This document shows positions 3,765 through 64,000 of a DNA stretch of 64,000 bases, piece after piece. The position numbers and the translations under genes were made by a program. The stretch lies in assembly GCA_032622095.1 (NCBI GenBank), contig CP136068.1, positions 161,901,465-161,965,464 on the forward strand, written 5' to 3'. The notes under the pieces are model-generated. The model saw nothing but the letters and a program-made list of their open reading frames with translations. It ran no database searches and was not told the DNA's origin. Source of the stretch: Siphonodentalium dalli (Eukaryota > Mollusca > Scaphopoda > Gadilida > Siphonodentaliidae). Within the stretch, counting starts at the first letter, position 1. Each line of letters starts with the position of its first letter.

Positions 3765-4262
3765 TTTAGGGTTATGGTTAGGGTTAGGGTTAGGGTTAGG
3801 ACTAGGGTTAGGGTTAGGGTTAGGGCTAGGGTTAGGGCTAGGGTTAGAGTTAGGGTTAGAATTAGGGTTAGGGTTAGGGTTAGGGTTAGAGTTAGGGTTA
3901 GGGCTAGGGGTAGAGTTAGGGTTAGAGTTAGGGTTAGATTTAGGGTTAGGGTTAGGGTTAGGGTTAGGACTAGGGTTAGGGCTAGTGTTAGGGTTAGGGC
4001 TATGGTTAGGGTTAGGGTTGGGGTTATGGTTAGGACTAAGGTTAGGGTTAGGGTCAGGGCTAGGGTTAGGGTTAGAGTTATGGTTAGGGTTAGGACTAGG
4101 GTTAGGGCTAGGGTTATGGCTAGGGTTAGGGTTAGGGTTAGAGTTAGGGTTAGGGCTAGGACCAGGGTTAGGGCTAGGGTTAAGATTAGGGCTAGGGTTA
4201 GGGTTAGGGCTAGGGTTAGAGTTAGGTTTAGGGCTAGTGTTAGGTTAGAATTAGGGTTAGTG
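3765..4262 (+). repeat. Interstitial telomere-like (TTAGGG)n array, degenerate
   Basis: About 80 hexamers of GGTTAG with many single-base variants (CTAGGG, TTAGAG, TTATGG, TTAGGA). All are in the same phase and orientation, G-rich strand on plus. Open frames reading alternating Leu-Gly or Arg-Val run through it and are not genes. The degree of decay indicates an old internal site, not a chromosome end. It is followed at once by a palindromic MITE. Confidence 0.95.
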
Positions 4263-4274
4263 TATTCTTACATG

Positions 4275-4516
4275 AATGACATACCAATTTTTAGGATACC
4301 CTGTGCCAATACATTCTCATATATATGCGAGGCTCGCTATGGGAGATTCGCATATATAAGATAATGCATTGGCCTAACACTATTTACCTTGACCTTGAAA
4401 TCCAGTGCACTCTCCTATATATGCGAGGTCGCTACGAGAGACTCACATATATGATAAGGCACTGGCGCAGGATCATTAATGCTGCACCAGCGCGGCTCCC
4501 GCAACGAAAGGGTAAA
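4275..4516 (+). mobile_element. Palindrome-bearing MITE, piggyBac-like right end, left end lost
   Basis: Carries two hairpins (4305-4373 and 4402-4466) of the family GCCAATGCATTCTCTTATAT, then the block ATTAATGCTGCACCAGCGC and the terminus CGAAAGGGTAAA. The same right half ends in AAAGGGTTAA in the intact relative at 29655-29873. Here TTAA has become TAAA and the left terminus is missing next to the telomere-like array. Confidence 0.7.
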
Positions 4517-6396: not shown

Positions 6397-6856
6397 GTGA
6401 CCCGCCATATCAAATCCAGTCGTAAGTCGGGATTTTTTTTACCCTGTGCCAATACATTCTCTTATATATGCGAGTCGACCATAGGTCGCCTCGCATATAT
6501 AAGAGAATGCATTGGCCTATAACAATATTTTATCATTTTTTTTAAATAAATGTTTCTTACAATTTTTAGGACATAAAATAAAAAAACATCCATTACCCTG
6601 CAGGGAGCCCCACACATATATATACGCATATAGAAGAGTGTCGTCTGCTCATGTTTGTCTGGGGCTCTGTATGGGTGAAATTATAAAATTGTTAAAGAAT
6701 ACAAGAAAAACTTATTAAAATTGTAAAAAATTGTTAGGCCAATGCGTTCTCTTATATATGCGAGGCGACCTATTGTCGACTCGCATATATAAGAGAATGC
6801 ATTGGCAAAGGGTAAAAAAATCCCGACTTTCGACTGGATTTGATATAGCGGGTCAC
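6397..6856. mobile_element. 460-bp MITE with GTGACCCG ends and two internal hairpins
   Basis: Terminal inverted repeats of about 50 bp begin GTGACCCGCCATATCAAATC and close in GATATAGCGGGTCAC, flanked on both sides by ATAT. Directly inside each terminus sits one 69-bp palindrome (6448-6516 and 6738-6806) of the GCCAATGCATTCTC type. The spacer between them is AT-rich and interrupted by a CTGCAGGGAGCCCC segment. A fragment of the same termini lies at 23901. Confidence 0.8.
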
Positions 6857-14719: not shown

Positions 14720-15876
14720 TAGTCCAAGTCTTCTTGTCCTAAAACCAGCTAAGATATTGGGATGGCGATGCTGGCGTTTAGTCCAAGACCGCCCTATATG
14801 CTCGCTTATGACACGGCTTAAGCGTTAGTGACCCGCTCAAATAAAACCACAATTATATGAAATAAAATATCACAATTGCGACAATAAACGGATATTTTCC
14901 GCAGAAGACATGCTATTTTATCTGAAACCCACATCAGTTGTGAATTTAAAACGGTAATTTAATGCGAAAAGAGACATTTACCTCAATGTTTACAATTTTT
15001 TAAAAGTATGCGAACTCGGTTGACCTCGCGAACTGTGTTCGGCATTTTCCGTTGAAAATATTCTGTAGATTTTGGACAACAACGATGAATTCTCCATTGT
15101 AATCGTAATTATGTGTGTCAATAAATAAAATAATAAATAGATTAATTAAACATTGGAGATATAAATGTAATACACTAAATAAATGAACCTTAAGTTTGAA
15201 AAGTCCCACTAAAACGGAAGAACTATATTTCGAAACTGTGTGATTCGGTTCTCCGATTATTTTATCAACACAGATGTCAAAATGCACACCACACGCATGG
15301 CAAGTCAGACACAAGAGATCTAATTTGCTCCAATTTTGACAAGTTGCTTGCGATAATTGTCAACAAAACTACCGTTCTGATCCTCCATTATGTCATTAAG
15401 TTTTTAGTGCGGGAATTGTTCTGAAAGCACATAGAAAACGGGACTTTCGGGCGATCGGTTTTCGCCATTTTTGTTCGGAAAACCCGCGCTATATATAGAA
15501 ACGGAAAGTAGAATTCCCAGAACAAACAGCGGATTATGCCGAACTTATTCGGACCACTTCGGCTTTCGGTTAAAACGTAAACAAACAGAGAAACAAATCG
15601 ATGTTTGTGGCAATCAACCGGAATATTCTATGTGTAATTTAACATTCAAGTTAGATTATTATACACCATTATGACCATTAGATGTAAGCCTTTCCGATGT
15701 ATATAGCATCATGTATTGATTTGCTAGGTAAATCGAGTAAAATACACCACAAATTCCCGCCACAGATCGTGGGCGTAACTCATGTGGTAGGATTGGTATG
15801 CAAGCGGGCTTGGACTAAACGCCAGCATCGCCATCCCAATATCTTAGCTGGTTTTAGTACAAGAAGACTTGGACTA
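14720..15876. mobile_element. 1157-bp element, 9-bp target duplication, Mutator-like
   Basis: Terminal inverted repeats of about 68 bp begin TAGTCCAAGTCTTCTTG and include ATATTGGGATGGCGATGCTG; the right copy differs at very few bases. The flanking nine bases GGTCGTCAG are repeated exactly at 14711-14719 and 15877-15885. A 9-bp duplication with long terminal repeats is typical of Mutator-like elements. Inside, a minus-strand frame at 15000-15314 starts MCLTCHACGVHFD (a CxxC pair) but matches no family I can name, and no transposase domain is visible. Confidence 0.75.
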
Positions 15877-16226: not shown

Positions 16227-16724
16227 GTTGCTGAAATCATTGAGTTACCATGCAGACGACAATTTATCAGAGAGCGTAAACGGAGAGTCACAAAGTTAGT
16301 GATTGATTTGTGGTGAGGGGGTGGCTATTGTTAATTTGACATTCAAAGTTGAACACCGTGTTGAAGATAGCATCCTCTGACCTTTACTCGATTCGTGATT
16401 AACGAGGTTTGTGGCATGTGTTGGTGTTTAATTCAAAATTACCGATGATAAACTAATCTCTAGTTGACAGGGAACTGTGAAATTATTTGTCTTTGACCTT
16501 TGCTAAATTTGTGATTAAATAGACCATGTTACGAATCTCTACGCTTGCCTTGCCTGGGTCCCGCAGAGATCATATTCAGCCGGATTAAAAACCGGAAACT
16601 TTTTGAAATTTCAGACGGGGAATGTCCTTGTAATGGTGTAAACTGCTGTGTGGGTGACTGATACTTTAAATAGCCGATTGACAATTTCGAGTTGACATGT
16701 AACAATGCGATTCATTTGCCCTCT
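16227..16724. other. No gene; dispersed TGACCTTT motif
   Basis: Two related blocks, near 16378 (TGACCTTTACTCGATTCGTG) and 16493 (TGACCTTTGCTAAATTTGTG), recur at 17538 and 20109. They may be scattered remains of an old repeat. No gene is supported. Confidence 0.4.
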
Positions 16725-17095
16725 GCCAATGCATTCTCTTATATATGCGAGTCAACCATAGGTCGACTCGCATATATAAGAGAATGCATTGGTCTTATAT
16801 ATGTTATAATTGTTAAAGAATGTACAAAACAAAAATGAATAAACAAATTATAAAATATTGTAAGAATGTAAGAAATAATGATACAAAAATGATAACAATT
16901 GTTATAGAATGTACGATAAATATGATAAAAAATCGATAAAGAATATAAGAAAAAAATATCATAACTCATCAAAAAGTGTTAAAGAATGTAAGAAATAACG
17001 ATAAAAAAAATGATAAAAAATTGTTAAAGAAAGAAAGAAAAAATAAAGTAAAATTGATAAAGAATGCAAGAAAAAATGATAAAATATCATCACTG
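16725..17095 (+). repeat. 69-bp palindrome followed by AT-rich array
   Basis: 16725-16792 is one hairpin of the GCCAATGCATTCTC family. After it comes about 300 bp built from diverged repeats of GTTAAAGAATGTAAGAAA and AATGATAAAA. The same words form the spacer between paired hairpins at 49272-49350 and 55004-55082, so this looks like an expanded version of that spacer without the second hairpin. Confidence 0.65.
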
Positions 17096-22769: not shown

Positions 22770-23216
22770 GTATGTAAATATTTTGGGACTTTTGTCTGTT
22801 TGTCTGTCTGTTAGCTGTGGCCGGGAAAACTGCCGGACGGATTTCGACGAAATTTGATACATAGGGATACTTTTGTCCGGGGAGTGTTTTGAACGGGTCA
22901 AATCTTGACCCAGACCTGACCTTGACCTTCAAAATGGTCAATTCAAGGTCAAATCTGGTAAAACCGACGGATTGCGATGAAATTTGATACCTAGGGGTAC
23001 TTTTGTCCGGGGAGCGTTTTGGTCCTTTTGAACGGGTAAAATCGTGACCCCGACCTGACCTTGACCTTCAAAATGGTCAATTCAAGGTCAAATCGGATCC
23101 AATTTCGTATGCGACCGTGTCCTTGCTCATATACGCTCATATAGTCATGTTTCTGGCAAAGAAATCCCTAAATAGCCCTGACGAATAGCCCGGACGAAGT
23201 CGGGCCCACCAGCTAG
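22770..23216 (+). mobile_element. Non-autonomous Helitron
   Basis: The 3-prime end is clear: hairpin GCCCGGACGAAGTCGGGC (23188-23205), seven bases, then CTAG followed by T. The start is uncertain (TCTGTTTGTCTG near 22795 is a candidate). The body has two imperfect copies of a 150-bp block with ATTTCGACGAAATTTGATAC, TTTTGTCCGGGGAG and TGACCTTGACCTTCAAAATG. Confidence 0.7.
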
Positions 23217-23340
23217 TATGTATATATTTTCTATTTACACAAACCTCGTAAAAGCTACCATATTACAAAATTGACAGCAGCTTTAAAACTTTGTGGTACA
23301 AAATTGTGTGCTGTTCAGCTTTGACACAAACAAGCCTTGA

Positions 23341-23497
23341 AATAGTGTGTCTGTCATTTGCAGAATGAGGTCCCCAGCTGTAAGCAGAATGAGGTCCCCA
23401 GATGGTGAATTTGGTTATGCTAGCCCGTTATGCGGGGTGGCATTACTAAAGTGGGGACCTCATTCTGTAAATGACAGACACACTATTTCAAGGCTTG
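23341..23497. mobile_element. Palindromic hAT-type MITE, 157 bp
   Basis: The ends CAAGCCTTGAAATAG and CTATTTCAAGGCTTG pair along nearly the whole element. GACACAAA is duplicated exactly at 23333-23340 and 23498-23505. The internal word GAATGAGGTCCCCAGA defines the family, seen in full at 33609, 39490, 50205 and 57004. Confidence 0.85.
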
Positions 23498-23748
23498 GAC
23501 ACAAAAGCAGTGTATAACACATATTACAGCTTCTGATAATTTGTGTTGTGTGGTAACCTTTACGAGTTTTGCGTCTCCGGTAGAATACATCTCGTCTGCT
23601 CATTTAATAAATATGATACACTCACATATTCGCTCATATTCAACAGTGATGAAATTTAACTAACACCTATGTCTTGTGTCATTTCCTTTTATTTAAAATC
23701 AAATGTAACACATATTGTGTAGAATGTATATGTTTCTTCTAAGAGTGC

Positions 23749-24157
23749 CGGGCGAGATTATGTGAACTCAACACTATCGGGGGAGTAGTTTAGCAGTCGC
23801 CGTGCAAATTAGTATCATTATAATTATATAGTATATGTGATCCGTCACTATAGTCAAGACGGACAGAACTCGTTCGAACCCCAACATTATTCATACATAT
23901 GTGACCCGTCATATCAAAACAAGTCGTAAGTCGAAAAATATTTTATTTGAGTTGTGTGCTGCATGTTATAGAGTGTGATAAGAGCTCGGTGTCAGTGTCA
24001 GCATAAACCGATTCCAGATAATCAGAAATAATCGCATTTAAAGACAAACAAATTAGCTAAAACTCTATACAAATGTGTACAAAAAAAATCTGAATTTTTC
24101 GGATTTTTTGACTTCCCTGCACGAGATGTCTAGATATATTGGTTACAATCGTTAGAC
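23749..24157. other. No gene; fragment of the GTGACCCG element
   Basis: GTGACCCGTCATATCAAAAC at 23901 and AAGTCGTAAGTCG match the terminus of the element at 6397. The rest is unassigned AT-rich DNA. Confidence 0.5.
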
Positions 24158-24222
24158 GATCTGTGTGATCAACTAAGATAAGCAACATCGAGCTCGGTTA
24201 GTCCTGGGATGGGGGACCGATG
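24158..24222 (+). pseudogene. 5S rRNA-derived fragment
   Basis: GATCTGTGTGATCAACTAAG followed by ATAAGCAACATCGAGCTCGG and TTAGTCCTGGGATGGGGGAC follows the middle of animal 5S rRNA (the GATC..AAGTTAAGCAACGTC stretch, then GGTTAGTACTTGGATGGG and GACCG). This covers the internal control region of the gene. The 5-prime third and the 3-prime end are not recognisable. The match is by recall of the conserved 5S sequence; an alignment would settle it. Confidence 0.7.
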
Positions 24223-24840
24223 CATCGAGCTCGGTTAGTCCTGGGATGGGGGACCGATACATCGAGCTCGGTAGTCCTTGGATGGGGGACCGATGCATCG
24301 AGCTCGGTTAGTCCTGGGATGGGGGACCGATACATCGAGCTCGGTTAGTCCTTGGATGGGGGACCGATACATCGAGCTTGGTTAGTCCTTGGATGGGGGA
24401 CCGATACATCGAGCTCGGTTAGTGCTTGGATGGTGGACCGATAGATCGAGCTCGGTTAGTCATGGGATGGGAGACCGATACATCGAGCTCGGTTAGTCCT
24501 GGGATGGGGGACCGATACATCGAGCTCGGTTAGTCCTGGGACGGGGGACCGATACATCGAGCTCGGTTAGTCCTTGGATGGGGGACCGATACATCGAGCT
24601 CGGTTAGTCCTTGGATGGGGGACCGATACATCGAGCTCGGTTGGTCCTTGGATGGGGGACCGATACATCGAGCTCGGTTAGTCCTGGGATGGGGGACCGA
24701 TACATCGAGCTCGGTTAGTCCTTGGATGGGGGACCGATACATCGAGCTCGGTTAGTCCTGGGATGGGATCTAGCTCGGTTAGTCCTTGGATGGGATCGAG
24801 CCCGGTTACTCCTTGCATGGGTGGGATCGAGCTACATTAG
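24186..24840 (+). repeat. 37-bp satellite made of 5S rRNA promoter sequence
   Basis: About 18 units of CATCGAGCTCGGTTAGTCCT followed by TGGATGGGGGACCGATA. Each unit repeats the part of 5S rRNA that holds the intermediate element and C box. The first unit is continuous with the longer 5S-like stretch at 24158. The final units are shortened (24747-24835). The minus frame reads SVPHPRTNRARC-like peptides by periodicity only. Confidence 0.85.
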
Positions 24841-24868
24841 TCCTTGGATAGCGGAGATATTGGTGACT

Positions 24869-25335
24869 GCAATATAGGAGTTAGGCAGGACCCACCAGCA
24901 ATATAGGAGGTAGGCAGGACTCACCGGCAATATAAGAGGAAGGAAGGACTCACCAGCATTATAGGAGGTAGGTAGGACCCACCAACAATATAGGAAATAG
25001 GTAGGACCCACCAGCAATATAGGAGGTAGACAGGACCCACCAGCAATATAGGAGGTAGGCAGGACCCACCAGAAATATAGGAGGTAGACAGCACCCACCA
25101 GCAATATAGGAGGTAGGCAGGACCCACCAGCAATATAGGAGGTAGGCAGGACCAACCAGCAATATGGGAGGTAGGCAGGACCCACCAGCAATATGGGAGG
25201 TAGGCAGGACCCACCAGCAATATATGAGGTAGGCAGGACCACCAGCAATATAGGAGATAGGCAGGACCCACCAGCAATATAGGAGGTAGGCAGGACCCAC
25301 CAGCAATATGGGAGGTAGGCAGGACTCACCAGATT
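24869..25335 (+). repeat. 29-bp satellite, about 16 units
   Basis: Unit CAATATAGGAGGTAGGCAGG followed by ACCCACCAG. The GACCCACCAGCA word is shared with the 31-bp satellite that follows, which suggests a common origin. The three minus-strand frames of 118-165 residues are repeat artefacts. Confidence 0.9.
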
Positions 25336-27845
25336 TATACAAATTCAGCAATACTCACCAGTATCATATCAGTTCAGTCGGACCCGCCAACACCATATGA
25401 CCCACCTTACATCATATGAATTCAACAGGAACAAGGAGTATCATAGGAATTCAACAGGACCCCCAACAGCATCATATCACATAATCAGGACCCACCATGA
25501 TCATAGTAGTTCATCGGGACCCACCAGCACCATGTGAATTCTGTAGGACCACTAGTAGTTCAGCATCATATCGCAGTTCAGCATGACCCACCAGCATCAT
25601 ATCGCAGTTCAGCAAGACCCACCATCATATCGCAGTTCAGCATGACCCACCAGCATCATCTCGCAGTTCAGCATGATCCACCAGCATCATAAGAATTCAG
25701 GAGGACACACCAGCATCATAAGAATTCAGCATGACCCACCAGCATCATATCGCAGTTCAGCATGACCCACCAGCATCATACGAATTCAGGAGGACCCACC
25801 AGCATCATAAGAATTCAGCATGACCCACCAGCATCATATCGCAGTTCAGCATGACCCACCAGCATCATATAGCGGTTCAGCATGACCCACCAGCATCATA
25901 TCGCAGTTCAGCATGACCCACCAACATCATATCGTAGTTCAGCATGACCCACCAGCATCATATCACAGTTCAGCGTGACCCACCAGCATCATATCGCAGT
26001 TCAGCATGACCCACCAGCATCATATCACAGTTCAGCATGACCCACCAGCATCATATCACAGTTCAACATGACCCACCAGCATCATATCGCAGTTCAGCAT
26101 GACCCACCAGCATCATATCGCAGTTCAACATGACCCACCAGCATCATATCACAGTTCAGCATGACCCACCAGCATCATATCGTAGTTCAGCATGACCCAC
26201 CAGCATCATATCGCAGTTCAGCATGACCCACCAGCACCATATCGCAGTTCAGCATGACCCACCAGCATCATATCGCAGTTCAGCAAGACCCACCAGCATC
26301 ATATCACAGTTCAGCATGACCCACCAGCATCATATCGCAGTTCAGCATGACACACCAGCATCATATCGCAATTCAGCATGACCCACCAGCATCATATCAC
26401 AGTTCAGCATGACCCACCAGCATCACATGGCAGTTCAGCATGACCAACCAGCATCATATCGCAATGCAGCATGACCCACCAGCATCATAATAATTCAGGA
26501 GGACCCACCAGCATCATATCGCAGTTCAGCATGACCCACCAGCATTATATAGCAGTTCAGCATGACCCACCAGCATCATAATAATTCAGGAGGACCCACC
26601 AGCATCATAAGAATTCAGCATGACCCACCAGCATCATTTCGCAGTTCAGCAGGACCCACCATCATCATTTCGCAGTTTAGCAGGACCCACCAGCATCATA
26701 TAGCGGTTCAGAAAGACCCACCAACATCATATCGCAGTTCAGCATGACCCACCAGCATCATATCGCAGTTCAGCATGACTCAACAGCATCATATCACAGT
26801 TCAGCATGACTCACCAGTATCATATCGCAGTTCAGCATGACCCACCAACATCATATAGCGGTTCAGCATGACCCACCAACATCATATAGCGGTTCAGCAA
26901 GACCCACCAGCATCATATAGCGGTTCAGCAAGACCCACCAGCATCATTTCGCAGTTCAGCAGGACCCATCAGCATCATATAGCGGTTCAGCATGACCCAC
27001 CAGCATCATAAGAATTCAGGAGGACCCACCAGCATCATAAGAATTCAGCATGACCCACCAGCATCATATCGCAGTTCAGCATGACCCACCAGCATCATAT
27101 AGCGGTTCAGCATGACCCACCAGCATCATATCGCAGTTCAGCATGACCCACCAGCATCATATAGCGGTTCAACATGACCCACCAGCATCATATCGCAGTT
27201 CAGCATGACCCACCAGCATCATATCGCAGTTCAGCATGACCCACCAGCATCATATCGCAGTTCAGCATGACCCACCAGCATCATATAGCAGTTCAGCATG
27301 ACCCACCAGCATCATATCGCAGTTCAGCATGACCCACCAGCATCATATCGCAGTTCAGCAAGACCCACCAGCATCATATCGCAGTTCAGCATGACCCACC
27401 AGCATCATATCGCAGTTCAGCATGACCCACCAGCATCATATCGCAGTTCAGCATGACCCACCAGCATCATATCGCAGTGCAGCATGACCCACCAGCATCA
27501 TAATAATTCAGGAGGACCCACCAGCATCATATCGCAGTTCAGCATGACCCACCAGCATCATATCGCAGTTCAGCATGACCCACCAGCATCATATAGCAGT
27601 TCAGCATGACCCACCAGCATCATATCGCAGTTCAGCAAGACCCACCAGCATCATATGAATTAAGGAGGACCCACCAGCATCATATAGATATTCAGCATGA
27701 CCCACCAGCATCATATCGCAGTTCAGCATGACCCACCAGCATCATATAGCAGTTCAGCATGACCCACCAGCATCATATCGCAGTTCAGCATGACCCACCA
27801 GCATCATATCGCAGTGCAGCATGACCCACCAACATCATAGGAATT
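25336..27845 (+). repeat. 31-bp satellite, about 80 units
   Basis: Unit CATCATATCGCAGTTCAGCA followed by TGACCCACCAG. Variants ATATAGCGG, AATAATTCAGGAGG and AAGAATTCAG recur in blocks, which suggests unequal exchange. Two near-units (CATCATAGCAATTCAGCAGG followed by ACCCACCAG) form part of the right terminal repeat of the MITE at 52237-52737, so the satellite probably arose from such a terminus. Confidence 0.9.
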
Positions 27846-27983
27846 CATCACGATCACTTAAAGTCACATTGCGGTTGCACTCCAAAATAGAATTAATAAT
27901 ATTTATTTTTCAATTTGACCCGGTATTGAAATATGTCGATACATACTTGAACTATCTTTCTGTGGGCATTCTGTATCCCAAAA

Positions 27984-29654: not shown

Positions 29655-29873
29655 TTAACCCTTTCATGACTGAAGATTTCTGAAATTTTGCGAAAAACCT
29701 GTGCCAATGCATTCTCTTATATATGCGAGTCTCCCATATGACTTTGTCTTGTAAGCCAGTGCATTTTATTATGTATGCGATGCTCCCTATGGGAGACTCG
29801 CATATATAAGATAATGCACTGGCACATGATATTTAATGCTGCACCAGCGCAGCACCTGTTTCGAAAGGGTTAA
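29655..29873. mobile_element. piggyBac-like MITE, TTAA-CCCTTT ends
   Basis: TTAACCCTTTCATGACTG at the left and TTCGAAAGGGTTAA at the right. TTAA target sites followed by CCC are characteristic of the piggyBac superfamily. Inside are half a hairpin (29703-29752) and a full one (29755-29823) of the GCCAATGCATTCTC family. 219 bp including TTAA. Confidence 0.8.
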
Positions 29874-30458: not shown

Positions 30459-30708
30459 TTAACCCTTTGACGACGGTAGCTGTGCTGGTGCAACATTAAC
30501 TATCCTGTTACAGTGCATTATCTTATATATATGCGAGTCTCTCATAGGGAGCCTCGCATATATAAGATAATGCACTGGCTCGCACGGCCAGGATATATAT
30601 GGTAGGCCAATGCATTATATTATATATGCGAGGATCCCATATATAAGAGAATGCATTAGCACAGGATTTTTGCAAACTTTCAGGAAGCTCCAGTCATGGA
30701 AGAGTTAA
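30459..30708. mobile_element. piggyBac-like MITE with one full hairpin and a remnant
   Basis: TTAACCCTTTGACGACGG at the left and CAGTCATGGAAGAGTTAA at the right. A full hairpin covers about 30511-30579 and a shortened one 30605-30660. 250 bp including TTAA. It is related to 29655 and 47469 at the ends and in the hairpins. Confidence 0.75.
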
Positions 30709-31150: not shown

Positions 31151-31217
31151 TTGGATGCTATTTCAAGCACTATTAAAACATCTATTCAATATTGTGATAG
31201 TTACAGTTATGCCCTGT

Positions 31218-31404
31218 GCCAATGCATTCTCTTATATATGCGAGTCGACCATAGGTCGCCTCGCATATATAAGAGAATGCATTGGCCTAAAAAAAATCTT
31301 TTTTTTAACACTTTTTACCATTTTTCTTACATTCTTTAACAATTTTATAATTTTTAATGTGTTAAGCCAATGCATTCTCTTATATATGCGAGGCGACCTA
31401 TGGT
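31218..31404. mobile_element. Truncated double-hairpin MITE
   Basis: Full hairpin 31218-31286, AT-rich spacer with TTTCTTACATTCTTTAACAA, then most of a second hairpin from 31366. It breaks off at CGACCTATGGTC (31404). Upstream GTGATAGTTACAGTTATGCC matches the body of the element at 54782. Both outer ends are missing. Confidence 0.75.
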
Positions 31405-43067: not shown

Positions 43068-43494
43068 GATTTTTGTCACAATAAATTCACGGTTTGACAT
43101 ACAGATCGTCGATAATCGTCAGTTTATATCATTTTAGACGTGGACACTCCGGGATGACCGGCGTTCGTACGGCAATAGAAAAGTTATCCCGAAAATTCCA
43201 TAAGGCTGTTAACTGGTATTCCGTATTCCACCCTCTGTGTTAAGTGGTATTCCGTATTCCAGGGGGTGGGGGTGGGGGCCTCATGGGAATGTATTTCTAA
43301 ACCTCTACATTGCATTAATTTCAATTTCAGACGGCGTTCGGATGAACGATGGTATAGACACACTACACCACATTTCCACCAGCGAATGCATTTATAAACC
43401 TCTACATTGAACGATGTTATAGATAAAGTCTACCACATTTATAAACGTCAACATTACATTATTTTTGTATTTTCAGACGGCGTTCGGACGAACG

Positions 43495-43822
43495 ATGGTA
43501 ATGCGCCAAGACCACACGAAGAGCGCTACAATGTACTTTAACGTGGTGTTTCTCGCGCTGTTACTGTTAGCTGAGAGCACGGTGGCGATCGGAAACAAGC
43601 TGCTGAGCATGCGCTGTTCTCGATGCCAGAATAACTGTCATGGCTGTCGGCGCGTGGGTGCCGGTGCTAGACAAGAATGGGAGAGGCTCGGCGCGGGGGC
43701 CAGAAAGGAGTTGGAGCTTCGGAAACACCTCGATGTGCTGAACAGAAAACTCAATCGACCGACCAAACTTACCTCACAACAGAAGTTTAAGGACAAGTTA
43801 GAAATAAAGTCGAGAGCATCCA
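43495..43822 (+). CDS. Activin-like TGF-beta superfamily prodomain, coding exon 1
   Basis: After an acceptor at 43476, ATG at 43495 opens MVMRQDHTKSATMYFNVVFL, whose hydrophobic stretch FLALLLLAESTVA is a signal peptide with likely cleavage before IGNK. Then comes CSRCQNNCHGC and a basic, helical region ending LDVLNRKLNRPTKLT. CxxC followed by a helix and a leucine-rich ILxxL..RP.xLT-like segment is the latency-lasso start of activin/inhibin-beta prodomains. The exon ends in phase 1 at donor GTGAGT (43823). The product would be secreted as a precursor. The same donor region is copied six times into the intron. Confidence 0.65.
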
Positions 43823-44455
43823 GTGAGTATATGTATTTATTATACACATAAACGCTCAACTGACAGACAAACTTACCTCACAACAGACGACAAGTTAGAA
43901 ATACACTCGAGTGCTAGCAGTGAGTATTTGTATTTAGTATCCACATAAACTCTCAATCGACAGACAAATTTACCTCACAACAGAAGCCTGGTGACAAGTT
44001 AGAAATACAGTCGAGAGCATCCAGTGAGTTTATGTATTTATTATGCACATAAACTCTTAATCGATCAATCAAACTTACATCACAACAGATGCTTGGGGAC
44101 AAGTTAGAAATACAGTCGAGAGCATCCAGTGAGTATATGTATTTATTATACACATAAACTCTAAATCGACCAATCAAACTTACCTCACAACATAAGACAA
44201 GTTTGAAATACACACGAGTGCTAGCAGTGTGTATATGTATGTATTATCCACATAAACTCTCAATCGACAGACAAACTTACCTCGCAACAGAAGCTTGGGG
44301 ACAAGTTAGAAATACATTCGCGAGCTTCTCGTAACTATATGTATTTATTATACACATAAACTCTTAATCGACCAATCAAATTTACCTCAAAACAGATGCT
44401 TAACGACAGGTTATAAATACAGTCGATATCTTCCAGTAAGTGTATATATTTATTA
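43745..44455 (+). repeat. About 100-bp tandem copies of the exon end and its splice donor
   Basis: The last 80 bases of coding exon 1 (from CAATCGACCGACCAAACTTA through AAGTTAGAAATAAAGTCGAG and AGCATCCA) with donor GTGAGTATATG are repeated about six more times at 97-105-bp steps. Donor positions read GTGAGT at 43823, 43920, 44024 and 44129, GTGTGT at 44227, GTAACT at 44330, GTAAGT at 44435. Several copies also keep TTACCTCACAACAG, an acceptor-like sequence. Confidence 0.85.
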
Positions 44456-44779: not shown

Positions 44780-45003
44780 TTTAAACGAGATCGCCTGGCA
44801 TCTCTGTTCTAAATATAGCCCGTAGACCTTCCGGAAAGGTTGGATGTATTATACCAGTACAATATCGAATTAAACTATATATTTATTGTTAGAATGGTTT
44901 CCGGACAGGTCTCTTCGATTCATTTTTATTATTTTATACCCCGAAAACTATTTATACGACTTGTTAGGAAGATACACACTAAATTATATTATGATATTCT
45001 TCT
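44780..45003 (+). repeat. Dispersed repeat in the intron, relative of the 41781 element core
   Basis: TTTCCGGACAGGTCTCTTCG, ATTCATTTTTATTATTTTAT and ACCCCGAAAACTAT match the right half of 41781-42306. Another relative lies at about 53390-53520. Confidence 0.6.
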
Positions 45004-45013
45004 TTGTTTCCAG

Positions 45014-45486
45014 TATATACTCTGAACAACCGGGTGATGTTCTTCGAGTTCACCATAGAATCTCTGTCAGTTTATGACATCAAGCGCGTTTACCTCAAAT
45101 TCTACGTGGAACAAAAAGCGAAAAAGCGACGAAAGCTAAAACTGCAGCTGTTCTCAGCTAACGCCAAGGGTAAAAATAGAAGATTCCTGTCATCAAAAAG
45201 ATTTGACGTCACGGGCTCGAGCGAATGGAACGAAATTCCACTCCCCATTCTTAAATTCAGTGACATTCTCAAAGTGAATAAGGGCAATTTCTACTTGTTT
45301 TTGAAATGCCGCGGGTGTAACAGGCGAACTAGAGTTGTCTTTCCTGTTAAGCGTCAAAGAAGGAGGCCGCATATGAGGCGGCGACAAAGGAAAGGAAAAC
45401 GAAGGAGTAGACGGATGGACAAAGGTCAATTGCTGAATGCAATGCGACCTAAACTTGAGATTGAATTTCGACGTGGTCACACGTGA
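45014..45486 (+). CDS. Activin-like TGF-beta superfamily prodomain, coding exon 2, no ligand domain
   Basis: Acceptor TTTGTTTCCAG (45013) joins in phase 1 to exon 1, giving RASIYTLNNRVMFFEFTIES. The beta-rich region reads KRVYLKFYVEQ, KLKLQLFSA, SSEWNEIPLP, NFYLFLKCRGCNRR. S-x-W-x-x-I/F-P-L-P and L-x-x-x-C-x-G-C are typical of activin/inhibin-beta prodomains. A very basic stretch follows (RRRPHMRRRQRKGKRRSRR), then MRPKLEIEFRRGHT and stop at 45484. In known activin genes the cysteine-knot ligand follows this RP-x-L segment; here it is absent. A weak donor (GTGACT, 45483) overlaps the stop, so a further exon is possible. Total 266 residues. Confidence 0.65.
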
Positions 45487-49172: not shown

Positions 49173-49569
49173 TTAACCCTTTACCCAACAGAACGGACCT
49201 GTGCCAATGCATTCTCTTATATATGCGAGTCGACCATAGGTCGCCTCGCATATATAAGAGAATGCATTGGCTTAACACATTAAAAATTATAAAATTGTTA
49301 AAGAATGTAAGAAAAAATGGTAAAAAGTGTTAAAAAAAGATTTTGTTTAGGCCAATGCATTCTCTTATATATGCGAGGCGACCTATGGTCGACTCGCATA
49401 TATAATAGAATGCATTGGCACAGGGCATAACTGTAACCATCACAATGTGGTCAATGAGCCGGTTCCAATGATATCCATATTTGTATGGTTTTATTGAGAC
49501 AGACCCAAGATAATTTAGGCTGTTGCAGCTTTATTTGGCCGTTTTTGGCCGGTTTGTTGGGTAAAGAGA
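49173..49569 (-). mobile_element. piggyBac-like double-hairpin MITE, about 397 bp
   Basis: TTAACCCTTTACCCAACAGA at the left and GTTTGTTGGGTAAAG at the right, the last bases and TTAA being lost. Hairpins at 49203-49271 and 49351-49419 enclose an AT-rich spacer. It is the reverse complement of the element at 54782-55181 over nearly the whole length. Inserted in GGGATTTAT repeats. Confidence 0.8.
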
Positions 49570-54781: not shown

Positions 54782-55181
54782 TTAACCCTTTACCCAACAA
54801 AACGGCCAAAACCGGCCAAATAAAGCTTCAACAGCCTAAAATATCTTCGGTCTGTCTCAATAGAACCATACAAATATGGATATCATTGGAACCGGCTCCT
54901 TGACCACATTGTGATAGTTACAGTTATGCCCTGTGCCAATGCATTCTCTTATATATGCGAGTCGACCATAGGTCGCCTCGCATATATAAGAGAATGCATT
55001 GGCATAAAAACAATCTTTTTTTAACACTTTTTACCATTTTTTCTTACATTCTTTAACAATTTTATATTGTTTAATGTGTTAAGCCAATGCATTCTCTTAT
55101 ATATGCGAGGCGACCTATGGTCGACTCGCATATATAAGAGAACGCATTGGCACATGGCCCTTCTGTTGGGTAAAGGGTTAA
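54782..55181 (+). mobile_element. piggyBac-like double-hairpin MITE, intact, 400 bp
   Basis: TTAACCCTTTACCCAAC at the left and GTTGGGTAAAGGGTTAA at the right, with TTAA at each border. Hairpins at 54935-55003 and 55083-55151 flank a spacer with TTTCTTACATTCTTTAACAA. The related locus at 41651-41680 reads CGAACATCTATTCATTGACC without an insert, an empty-site parallel. Confidence 0.85.
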
Positions 55182-57410: not shown

Positions 57411-57799
57411 CCAACACTGCGTAAGATTTGATTGTAAGAAATAAATCTTGTTTCGATTAAGCTTATGGGTTATACCCGACTTTTTTGAAGACACATTACA
57501 TCCGTACACAAAATGTGTATACCTCTTGTTTGTTTGTTCGTTCGTATATACCATATTACTTTTATACTCAACATGTGTTCACCCCACGTCTGTTCATTCA
57601 CATTATGTGTTCACCCCGTCTCTGTTCATTCAAATTATGTGTTCCTCGTTATTTGTTCAATCATGTTTAATAAAACTCTTATAAAAAACTATGCATTTAA
57701 CCGAATCTCCGCCATTGCTTATTGGTCTATTTGGTGCACATATACTAATTGCTTGGCATCTTTTCATAAAGTTCTTCAACTAAAGTTATTTAAGATTAA
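57411..57799. other. No gene; short ATGTGTTCACCCC repeat
   Basis: ATGTGTTCACCCC with CTGTTCATTCA is repeated about three times at 57570-57650. No supported exon. Confidence 0.5.
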
Positions 57800-60700
57800 A
57801 GACACCTACGTATGTCCCGATCCGGTTAAAGACACCTACGTATGTCCCGATCCGATAAAAGACACCTACGTATGTCCCGATCCGGTTAAAGACACCTACG
57901 TATGTCCCGATCCGATAAAAGACACCTACGTATGTCTCGATCCGATAAAAGACACCTACGTATGTCCCGATCCGGTTAAAGACACCTACGTATGTCCCGA
58001 TCCGAGTAAAGACACCTACGTATGTCCCGATCCGATTAAAGACACCTACGTATGTCCCGATCCGGTTAAAGACACCTACGTATGTCCCGATCCGACTAAA
58101 GACACCTATGTATGTCCCGATCCGGTTAAAGACACCTACGTATGTCCCGATCCGACTAAAGACACCTATGTATGTCCCGATCCGATAAAAGACACCTACG
58201 TATGTCCCGATCCGGTTAAAGACACCTACGTATGTCTCGATCCGATAAAAGACACCTACGTATGTCCCGATCCGGTTAAAGACACCTACGTATGTCCCGA
58301 TCCGAGTAAAGGCGCCTACGTATGTCCCGATCCGATTAAAGACACCTACGTATGTCCCGATCCGGTTAAAGACACCTACGTATGTCCCGATCCGACTAAA
58401 GACACCTATGTATGTCCCGATCCGGTTAAAGACACCTACGTATGTCCCGATCCGGTTAAAGACACCTACGTATGTCCCGATCCGGTTAAACACACCTACG
58501 TATGTCCCGATCCGGTTACAGACACCTACGTATGTCCCGATCCGGTTAAACACACCTACGTATGTCCCGATCCGGTTACAGACACCTACGTATGTCCCGA
58601 TCCGGTTAAAGACAAATACGTATGTCCCGATCCGATAAAAGACACCTACGTATGTCCCGATCCGATTACAGACACCTACGTATGTCCCGATCCGGTTAAA
58701 GACAAATACGTATGTCCCGATCCGGTTAAAGACGCCTACGTATGTCCCGATCCGATTACAGACACCTACGTATGTCCAGATCCGAGTAAAGACACCTACG
58801 TATGTCCCGATCCGAGTAAAGACACCTAAGTATGTCCCGATCCGAGTAAAGACACCTAAGTATGTCCCGATCCGATTAAAGACACCTACGTATGTCCCGA
58901 TCCGGTTAAAGACATCTACGTATGTCTCGATCCGATAAAAGACACCTACGTATGTCCCGATCCGATTAAAGACACCTACGTATGTCCCGATCCGATTAAA
59001 GACAAATACGTATGTCCCGATCCGGTTAAAGACGCCTACGTATGTCCCGATCCGACTAAAGACGTCTACGTATGTCCAGATCCGATTAAAGACACCTACG
59101 TATGTCCCGATCCGATTAAAGACACCTACGTATGTCCCGATCCGAGTAAAGACGCCTACGTATGTCCCGATCCGGTTAAAGACACCTACGTATGTCCAGA
59201 TCCGATTAAAGACAAATACGTATGTCCCGATCCGACTAAAGACACCTACGTATGTCCCGATCCGATTAAAGACGCCTACGTATGTCCCGATCCGATTAAA
59301 GACACCTACGTATGTCCCGATCCGATTAAAGACGCCTACGTATGTCCCGATCCGACTAAAGACGCCTACGTATGTCCCGATCCGGTTAAAGACACCTACG
59401 TATGTCCCGATCCGGTTAAAGACACCTACGTATGTCCCGATCCGATTAAAGACACCTACGTATGTCCCGATCCGATTAAAGACGCCTACGTATGTCCCGA
59501 TTCGACTAAAGACGCCTACGTATGTCCCGATCCGGTTAAAGACACCTACGTATGTCCCGATCCGATTAAAGACACCTACGTATGTCCCGATCCGATTAAA
59601 CACACCTACGTATGTCCCGATCCGATTAAAGACGCCTACGTATGTCCCGATCCGACTAAAGACGCCTACGTATGTCCCGATCCGGTTAAAGACACCTACG
59701 TATGTCCCGATCCGATTAAAGACACCTACGTATGTCCAGATCCGGTTAAAGACATCTACGTATGTCCCGATCAGATTACAGACACCTATGTATGTCCCGA
59801 TCCGATTAAAGACACATACCTATGTCCCGATCCGATTAAACACACCTATGTATGTCCAGATCCGATTAAAGACACCTACGTATGTCTCGATCCGATAAAA
59901 GACATCTACGTATGTCCCGATCAGATTACAGACACCTATGTATGTCCCGATCAGATTAAAGACACCTATGTATGTCCCGATCCGATTAAACACACATATG
60001 TATGTCCCGATCCGAGTAAAGACACCTACGTATGTCCCGATCCGGTTAAAGACACCTACGTATGTCCCGATCCGATAAAAGACACCTATGTATGTCCCGA
60101 TCCGATTAAACACACCTATGTATGTCTCGATCCGATTAAAGACACCTACGTATGTCCCGATCCGGTTAAAGACACATACGTATGTCCCGATCCGATAAAA
60201 GACGCCTACGTATGTCTCGATCCGACTAAAGACGCCTACGTATGTCCCGATCCGGTTAAAGACACCTACGTATGTCCCGATCCGATTAAAGACACCTACG
60301 TATGTCCAGATCCGATTAAACACACATACGTATGTCCAGATCCGGTTAAAGACATCTACGTATGTCCCGATCAGATTACAGACACCTATGTATGTCCCGA
60401 TTCGATTAAAGACACATACCTATGTCCCGATCCGATTAAACACACCTATGTATGTCCAGATCCGATTAAAGACACCTACGTATGTCTCGATCCGATAAAA
60501 GACACCTACGTATGTCCAGATCCGATTAAACACACATACGTATGTCCAGATCCGGTTAAAGACATCTACGTATGTCCCGATCAGATTACAGACACCTATG
60601 TATGTCCCGATCAGATTAAAGACACCTATGTATGTCCCGATCCGATTAAACACACATATGTATGTCCCGATCCGAGTAAAGACACCTACGTATGTCCCGA

Positions 60701-63700
60701 TCCGGTTAAAGACACCTACGTATGTCCCGATCCGATAAAAGACACCTATGTATGTCCCGATCCGATTAAACACACCTATGTATGTCTCGATCCGATTAAA
60801 GACACCTACGTATGTCCCGATCCGGTTAAAGACACCTACGTATGTCCCGATCCGGTTAAAGACACCTACGTATGTCCCGATCCGGTTAAACACATATACG
60901 TATGTCCCGATCCGATTAAAGACACCTACGTATGTCCCGATCCGATTAAAGACACCTATGTATGTCCCGATCCGATTAAAGACACATACGTATGTCCCGA
61001 TCCGAGTAAACACACCTACGTATGTCCCGATCCGAGTAAAGGCACCTACGTATGTCCCGATCCGATTAAAGACAACTATGTATGTCCCGATCCGATTAAA
61101 GACACCTACGTATGTCCAGATCCGATTAAATACACATACCTATGTCCCGATCCGACTAAAGACACCTATGTATGTCCCGATCCGACTAAAGACACCTATG
61201 TCCCGATCCGATTAAAGACACCTACGTATGTCCCGATCCGATTAAAGACACCTACGTATGTCCCGATCCGACTAAAGACACCTATGTATGTCCCGATCCG
61301 ATTAAACACACCTACGTATGTCCCGATCCGATTAAAGACACCTACCTATGTCCCGATCCGATTAAACACACCTACGTATGTCCCGATCCGACTAAAGACG
61401 CCTACGTATGTCCCGATCCGGTTAAAGACACCTACGTATGTCCCGATCCGATTAAAGACACCTACGTATGTCCCGATCCGATTACAGACAACTATGTATG
61501 TCCCGATCCGATTACAGACACCTACGTATGTCCCGATCCGATTAAAGACACCTACGTATGTCCCGATCCGGTTAAAGACACCTACGTATGTCCTGATCCG
61601 ATTAAACACACCTACGTATGTCCCGATCCGACTAAAGGCACCTACGTATGTCCCGATCCGATTAAAGACACCTACGTATGTCCCGATCCGACTAAAGGCA
61701 CCTACGTATGTCCCGATCCGATTAAAGACACCTACGTATGTCCCGATCCGACTAAAGACACCTACGTATGTCCCGATCCGACTAAAGGCACCTACGTATG
61801 TCCCGATCCGATTAAAGACGCCTATGTATGTCCCGATCCGATTAAAGACACCTACGTATGTCCCGATCCGGTTAAAGACACCTACGTATGTCCCGATCCG
61901 ATTAAAGACACCTACGTATGTCTCGATCCGATTAAACACACCTACGTATGTCCTGATCCGATTAAACACACCTACGTATGTCCCGATCCGATTAAAGACA
62001 CCTACGTATGTCCCGATCCGGTTAAAGACACCTACGTATGTCCCGATCCGATTAAAGACACCTATGTATGTCCCGATCCGATTAAAGACGCCTACGTATG
62101 TCCTGATCCGATTAAACACACCTACGTATGTCCCGATCCGACTAAAGGCACCTACGTATGTCCCGATCCGACTAAAGGCACCTACGTATGTCCCGATCCG
62201 ACTAAAGGCACCTACGTATGTCCCGATCCGACTAAAGGCACCTACGTATGTCCCGATCCGACTAAAGACACCTACGTATGTCCCGATCCGATTAAAGACA
62301 CCTACGTATGTCCCGATCCGGTTAAAGACACCTACGTATGTCCCGATCCGGTTAAACACACCTACGTATGTCCCGATCCGATTAAAGACACCTACGTATG
62401 TCCCGATCCGGTTAAAGACACCTACGTATGTCCCGATCCGATTAAAGACACCTACGTATGTCCCGATCCGATTAAAGACACCTACGTATGTCCCGATCCG
62501 ATTAAAGACACATACGTATGTCCCGATCCGGTTAAAGACACCTACGTATGTCCCGATCCGATTAAAGACACCTACGTATGTCCCGATCCGGTTAAAGACA
62601 CCTACGTATGTCCCGATCCGATTAAAGACACCTACGTATGTCCCGATCCGATTAAAGACACCTACGTATGTCCCGATCCGGTTAAAGACACCTACGTATG
62701 TCCCGATCCGATTAAAGACACCTAAGTATGTCCCGATCCGATTAAACACACCTACGTATGTCCCGATCCGATTAAACACACCTACGTATGTCCCGATCCG
62801 ACTAAAGGCACCTACGTATGTCCCGATCCTACTAAAGACACCTACGTATGTCCCGATCCGACTAAAGACACCTACGTATGTCCCGATCCGATTAAAGACA
62901 CCTACGTATGTCCCGATCCGGTTAAAGACACCTACGTATGTCCCGATCCGATTAAAGACACCTACGTATGTCCCGATCCGATTAAACACACCTACGTATG
63001 TCCCGATCCGAGTAAAGGCACCTACGTATGTCCCGATCCGATTAAAGACACCTACGTATGTCCCGATCCGATTAAAGACACCTACGTATGTCCCGATCCG
63101 ACTAAAGACACCTACGTATGTCCCGATCCGATTAAAGACAAATACGTATGTCCCGATCCGATTACAGACACCTACGTATGTCCCGATCCGATTAAAGACA
63201 CCTACGTATGTCCCGATCCGACTAAAGACACCTACGTATGTCCCGATCCGATTAAAGACACCTACGTATGTCCCGATCCGAGTAAAGACACCTACGTATG
63301 TCCCGATCCGATTACAGACACCTACGTATGTCCCGATCCGATTACAGACACCTACGTATGTCCCGATCCGGTTAAAGAGGCCTACGTATGTCCCGATCCG
63401 GTTAAAGAGGCCTACGTATGTCCCGATCCGAGTAAAGACACCTACGTATGTCCCGATCCGATTACAGACACCTACGTATGTCCCGATCCGATTAAAGACA
63501 CCTACGTATGTCCCGATCCGGTTAAAGACACCTATGTATGTCCCGATCCGGTTAAAGAGGCCTACGTATGTCCCGATCCAAGTAAAGACACCTACGTATG
63601 TCCCGATCCGATTACAGACACCTACGTATGTCCCGATCCGATTAAAGACACCTACGTATGTCCCGATCCGGTAAAAGACACCTACGTATGTCCCGATCCG

Positions 63701-64000
63701 GTTAAAGAGGCCTACGTATGTCCCGATCCGATTAAACACACCTACGTATGTCCCGATCCGATTAAAGACACCTACGTATGTCCCGATCCGACTAAAGGCA
63801 CCTATGTATGTCCCGATCCGATTAAACACACCTACGTATGTCCCGATCCGGTTAAAGACACCTACGTATGTCCCGATCCGACTAAAGGCACCTATGTATG
63901 TCCCGATCCGATTAAACACACCTACGTATGTCCCGATCCGGTTAAAGACACCTACGTATGTCCCGATCCGACTAAAGGCACCTATGTATGTCCCGATCCG
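57800..64000 (+). repeat. 30-bp satellite, at least 206 units, continues beyond the window
   Basis: Unit GACACCTACGTATGTCCCGA followed by TCCGATTAAA. The most variable bases are the four before AAA (GATT, GGTT, GACT, GAGT, GATA). Phase is kept in 60-bp steps until a 24-bp shift at about 61200. A segment from about 59700 to 60180 is repeated 600-660 bp further on with the same variant order. Four of six frames lack stops, giving frames up to 857 residues; variable sites change the residue freely (Val, Ile, Thr, Ser), so no coding constraint is seen. Confidence 0.95.

Follow-up and report, generated by a model that had tools for sequence, protein, structure and literature searches.

The 64,000-nucleotide stretch of DNA analyzed here (the window) contains a sequence resembling animal 5S rRNA that runs directly into a short tandem array, which raises the question of where this array came from and whether it acts as a cluster of promoter elements. 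An earlier note had read it as a satellite made by tandem repetition of the 5S internal promoter, and had suggested that it could serve as a sink for TFIIIA or as a weak Pol III start cluster. A promoter of type 1 for Pol III combines box A, an intermediate element (IE), and box C at 5S spacing, and TFIIIA binds to it. We take the end of box A to occupy 5S positions 59-64 and the IE positions 67-72, with box C reaching past position 95. The feature has three parts:

24157 to 24219, + strand: seed, a 5S rRNA-derived fragment (5S positions 30-93) that contains box A, the IE, and most of box C, delimited by local alignment and shuffles and with a weak in-register Rfam match
24185 to 24738, + strand: 15 tandem units (14 of 37 bp and one of 36 bp), delimited by TRF and by alignment to 5S positions 59-95
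24739 to 24858, + strand: four shortened, decayed units (27, 27, 31, and 35 bp) that close the array on its 3′ side, with the end of the last unit placed by hand

Similarity to animal 5S genes is significant for the seed, which places it among 5S rRNA-derived sequences. The yardstick was the animal-type 5S gene of contig L001 (JAOZOU010000036.1), the only reference taken from a sequence record, and standard human, Drosophila, and C. elegans 5S sequences were used beside it. In the alignment, the seed lacks one base relative to 5S positions 30-93 and is identical at 48 of 64 positions to the L001, human, and Drosophila genes each, and at 44 of 64 to the C. elegans gene; over the same stretch the four reference genes are identical to one another at 45 to 56 of 64 positions. 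Local alignment of the seed gave scores of 46 with L001, 46 with human, and 51 with Drosophila 5S, compared with top scores of 27, 27, and 33, respectively, from 2000 dinucleotide shuffles each, and 22, 23, and 23 from 2292 background tiles covering both strands of the window minus 24100-24900. The seed score is twice that of the top background tile, and extreme-value estimates per tile are 1.3e-8 (L001), 2.6e-8 (human), and 1.1e-10 (Drosophila), in three tests that are mutually non-independent. Scores of 36 with C. elegans 5S and 28 with the Rfam consensus were obtained with no shuffle control, and the top 5S score in the rest of the 64-kb window, outside the array, was 23.

Contig L001 was the one match to a looser animal 5S pattern in GTDB genomes. 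It is labelled 'bacterium' and carries U1, U2, 5S, and histone 3′ stem-loops, and it looks like an animal contaminant, a histone-snRNA-5S cluster binned with a bacterium. An animal 5S pattern had no matches in IMG/VR, and the array motif had none in IMG/VR or in GTDB genomes.

A likeness that arose by chance and was strengthened by the repetition of one unit would have to account for similarity that runs 28 bases beyond the repeated unit. Those bases are significant alone: the pre-array part (5S 30-58) outscored every one of 2000 mononucleotide shuffles when compared with the L001, human, and Drosophila genes, and gave p = 0.001 with C. elegans 5S against mononucleotide shuffles. The first unit alone (5S 59-93) likewise outscored all 2000 such shuffles with L001, human, and Drosophila 5S. 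Since the whole seed also outscores every shuffle and every background tile by a wide margin with three references, we consider a chance likeness extremely unlikely, and the comparisons support the 5S internal control region as the origin of the seed, as the earlier note had proposed.

At the RNA level, in contrast, alignment to Rfam family RF00001, which had been put forward as a check, failed. No family, RF00001 included, was found at gathering score when the whole window was compared with Rfam, RF00001 was absent at E values up to 10 in 24050-24900 and in 24147-24221, and neither the seed nor the array reaches the gathering score of the RF00001 covariance model. When cut exactly at 24157-24219, the seed scored 12.3 bits against a cut-off of 38, with E = 1.8 in register 35-94; a true 5S fragment spanning the same positions, cut likewise from L001, scored 43.9 bits with E = 8.1e-9. 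This shortfall, which persists even with exact ends, favors a chance likeness and counts against the 5S reading, but RF00001 was the sole family listed for the exact-cut seed out of 4227 Rfam families, and it was listed in the same register. We judge the DNA-level evidence to outweigh Rfam where origin is concerned. The seed is 5S-derived as DNA but has decayed, and it no longer scores as 5S RNA. RNA folding of 24168-24267 gave a stability that is not unusual (z = -1.31, with 23 of 200 shuffles equally stable).

The remaining parts of 5S, which the earlier note had described as missing, were undetectable in the bases next to the seed and the array (positions 1-29 and 94-120, p = 0.19 to 0.74), and a wider scan for them, with no control run, gave top local scores of 13-18 in 23001-24150 and 12-14 in 24841-26000. 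An intact 5S gene or 5S cluster is ruled out by the Rfam results together with the undetectable 5S ends.

The array starts at 24185 and comprises 19 units, the first of which doubles as the right part of the seed. The 37-bp unit maps gap-free onto 5S positions 59-95 and takes in the end of box A, the IE, and box C up to position 95, which is most of box C. Letters of the array that are unusual for 5S stand at positions 61, 65, 68, and 77. TRF reports a period of 37, 15.8 copies, and 94% matches, and the mean pairwise identity of the 14 37-mers is 94.7%. These results agree with the earlier description of about 18 copies of a 37-bp unit from the region of the IE and box C, to which the end of box A can be added, and also with its observation that several units keep a canonical core, CTTGGATGGG, which we find in 8 of the 19. 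Similarity between units is flat with distance, at 0.93-0.96 for lags 1 to 8. All four of the compared 5S genes have T at position 80, where seven of the 14 37-mers have G and seven have T, with both letters interspersed along the array. The interspersed letters and the flat similarity are what repeated exchange among the units would produce. Minisatellites are built from units of about 10-100 bp. With head-to-tail units of this size in a short array, the locus qualifies as a minisatellite, about 0.7 kb long, and while the tandem repetition of a part of the 5S promoter held up, the term 'satellite' overstates its size. The size limits of minisatellites are themselves without consensus (PMC6947457).

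Does the array retain a promoter function? Neither the seed nor the units show a sign of promoter selection in tests of their variation, which are low in power. Among the 37-mers, variant letters occur at 11 of 308 sites in the IE and box C versus 6 of 210 elsewhere, with positions 59-64 included in the latter (Fisher p = 0.80), and at 4 of 294 versus 6 of 210 when position 80 is left out (p = 0.33). Counting positions 59-64 as box gives 14 of 392 in boxes versus 3 of 126 elsewhere (p = 0.77), or 7 of 378 versus 3 of 126 minus position 80 (p = 0.72). In the seed, the positions matched by none of the four 5S genes number 4 of 35 in boxes versus 5 of 29 outside them (p = 0.72). Only the first unit has the left part of box A ahead of it, all 18 later units are preceded by the end of the previous unit, and the seed alone contains the full set of boxes at 5S spacing. 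No TTTT occurs within 24158-24868 on either strand, and the next run on the + strand is at 27906. It is therefore unlikely that the array gives rise to discrete Pol III RNAs.

A TFIIIA sink or weak Pol III start cluster at this locus would have no more than ~15 sites in fairly intact form, a small number next to the usual count of 5S genes, and G stands at position 80 in 7 of the 14 37-mers. It would also have to work with box A complete ahead of the first unit only, with boxes that show no excess conservation, and with a + strand free of TTTT between the array and 27906. Two observations speak for such a role. Box-C positions 81-93 are kept as GGATGGGRGACCG (G or A at position 88) in 13 of the 19 units, and this sequence is made solely of letters that occur in the compared animal 5S genes, so that TFIIIA binding is possible, a point that counts against a neutral reading of the locus. 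In addition, there is evidence from two frogs that PcP190, a 5S-like satellite, is transcribed (PMC11675491). We nevertheless consider the sink or start cluster very unlikely. Of the earlier interpretation, the derivation from the 5S internal control region stood up, whereas the functional part found no support. The array is most likely without function, and any TFIIIA contact would be incidental.

We think it probable, from the sequence, that the locus is a neutral minisatellite that grew from an incomplete copy of a 5S rRNA-type sequence, because the seed and first unit are 5S-like, the unit is gap-free on 5S 59-95, the 3′ edge of the array is decayed, tandem arrays are abundant nearby, and the boxes vary as much as the rest. 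In this process, a fragment of 5S type (positions 30-93) would have arrived at the locus, its 37-bp segment corresponding to 5S 59-95 could have been duplicated and then multiplied by replication slippage or unequal exchange, and the copies may have been partly homogenized afterwards. The seed may thereby have been caught up in a local process that expanded other sequences of this stretch. Alu and B1 are 7SL-derived SINEs. In the published model for minisatellites, those derived from Alu included, a duplication between short repeats is followed by slippage, conversion, or unequal exchange (PMC6947457), and we infer that this model may apply to the 5S-derived array. In both the Alu/B1 minisatellites and the array described here, a short piece of small-RNA-derived sequence expands in place (PMC6947457), whereas the former stem from SINEs and the piece here is 5S-derived.

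The surroundings of the array are rich in tandem repeats, which cover 24.6% of positions 1-57793 of the window in a hand list made from TRF. Three arrays with units of 29, 31, and 33 bp lie between 24869 and 28905, within 4.1 kb after the 5S-derived array, and the first of them adjoins it:

24869 to 25332, + strand: 29-bp minisatellite unrelated to 5S, by TRF and 5S comparison

Consensus units of 11 other arrays, among the larger number that the window holds, were compared with 5S and none was alike, with a top score of 20 versus 27-44 for the 37-bp unit. The 29-, 31-, and 33-bp arrays are separated by gaps of ~0.2 kb or less, and among the matches listed in the self-comparison (120 of 330) the 29- and 31-bp arrays show a distant likeness of about 70%. 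A 30-bp array of ~207 copies occupies 57794-64000 and continues past the right edge of the window, and 3766-4260 is an interstitial, degenerate TTAGGG telomere-like array (TRF, 82% matches).

How the seed reached the locus is a separate matter, on which an imperfect direct repeat bears:

24133 to 24146, + strand: left copy of an imperfect 14-bp direct repeat, GATATATTGGTTAC, a possible target-site duplication
24854 to 24867, + strand: right copy of the repeat, GAGATATTGGTGAC

The copies are identical at 12 of 14 positions and frame the whole feature, the right one sharing 5 bases with the last unit as delimited by hand. Their score gave p = 0.004-0.012 against random flank pairs and p = 0.018-0.028 against pairs at the same spacing, values that are post hoc since the repeat was spotted by eye before testing. 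The repeat suggests retroposition of the seed. SINE3 elements are characterized by a 5S head, a LINE-derived 3′ tail, a target-site duplication, and dispersed copies, and the TRIMs Ajax and Cassandra by a 5S promoter in each of two LTRs, a primer site, and a polypurine tract. The seed could have been part of a retroelement with a 5S promoter, either SINE3 or a TRIM of the Ajax sort, whose insertion produced a target-site duplication and inside which the array then grew. This account is compatible with a neutral minisatellite and differs in the source of the seed only. It draws on the direct repeat (12/14, p = 0.004-0.03) and on the decay of the seed as RNA, and the part of 5S that is kept, box A, IE, and box C, is that kept by Ajax and Cassandra (PMC10886601, PMC10853983). 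Against it, among the matches listed in the self-comparison (120 of 330, sorted to include those touching 24000-24872), no second copy of the seed or upstream flank longer than 50 bp is found in the window, and no LTR pair longer than 50 bp flanks the seed. Moreover, no 3′ tail of SINE type was recognized at the locus, the boxes of the seed are no better kept than the rest (4/35 versus 5/29), and the repeat had been noticed ahead of its test. We regard a retroelement source as possible, if rather doubtful. A bolder version, in which the IE and box C half-site of an inserted retroelement was multiplied to ~15 sites that recruit TFIIIA as a decoy or a local platform for Pol III factors, appears to us very unlikely as well. 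We know of no 5S-derived satellite or TRIM in the state of a TFIIIA-recruiting decoy array.

Sequences derived from 5S are known from several systems, which are compared here with the locus. PcP190 satellite DNA, present in seven frog families, has a monomer of ~190 bp made of ~120 bp of 5S-like sequence and a variable part, and its conserved part resembles the 5S transcribed region with 69.4% similarity (PMC11675491). Like the array, it is a tandem repeat with 5S-like sequence, but the monomer here is 37 bp, covers 5S 59-95 only, and occurs as 19 units at the one place observed, so that the array does not belong to the PcP190 type with its ~190-bp monomer and ~120-bp 5S-like region. Ajax, a nemertean TRIM, carries only box A, IE, and box C of the 5S promoter inside its LTR (PMC10886601, section 3.7), and thus keeps the 5S promoter region alone, as the seed does, and in an animal host. 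As judged by description only, Ajax is a dispersed LTR element of 421 or 434 bp (PMC10886601), whereas the locus has no LTR pair or second copy among the matches listed (120 of 330). SINE3 and Cassandra likewise carry the 5S internal promoter outside 5S genes (PMC10886601, PMC10853983), with a 5S core of about 70 bp kept in Cassandra (PMC10853983). Both are dispersed and bear the promoter as a single stretch in a SINE head or LTR, in contrast to the short tandem array of a promoter part found here. Literature titles and abstract starts named no short minisatellite made of 5S promoter parts among the matches listed, which does not prove that none exists. While 5S-derived satellites and retroelements are already known, a short unit of almost only IE and box C is a further variant. 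It shows a further route for the spread of 5S promoter pieces, and the array offers a natural multimer for measuring TFIIIA binding without a full box A. If the array binds nothing, it is an ordinary minisatellite grown from whatever sequence was at hand.

Other parts of the window contain features of separate interest. By eye, the open frames at 44995-45483 and 43423-43848 resemble the propeptide of an activin/inhibin-type gene; the former has no Pfam match at E values up to 1 and a top PDB match to inhibin beta A that is not significant (E = 0.18), and the latter has a single Pfam match, below the cut-off. Taken with the 5S of animal type, the frame at 44995-45483 suggests that the DNA comes from an animal. 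At 14720-15876, a segment of 1157 bp lies between 73-bp terminal inverted repeats that are 97.3% identical, inside a 56-bp minisatellite and with GGTCGTCAG on both outer sides, an arrangement suggestive of a DNA transposon that jumped into the 56-bp array. A short element of ~70-90 bp occupies at least 11 sites among the matches listed in the self-comparison (120 of 330), at 4296-4377, 6440-6530, 6726-6814, 16717-16795, 29752-29832, 30501-30579, 31209-31290, 49198-49282, 49347-49428, 54926-55007, and 55076-55157, and several of its copies match one another in either orientation, a pattern expected of a small palindromic MITE.
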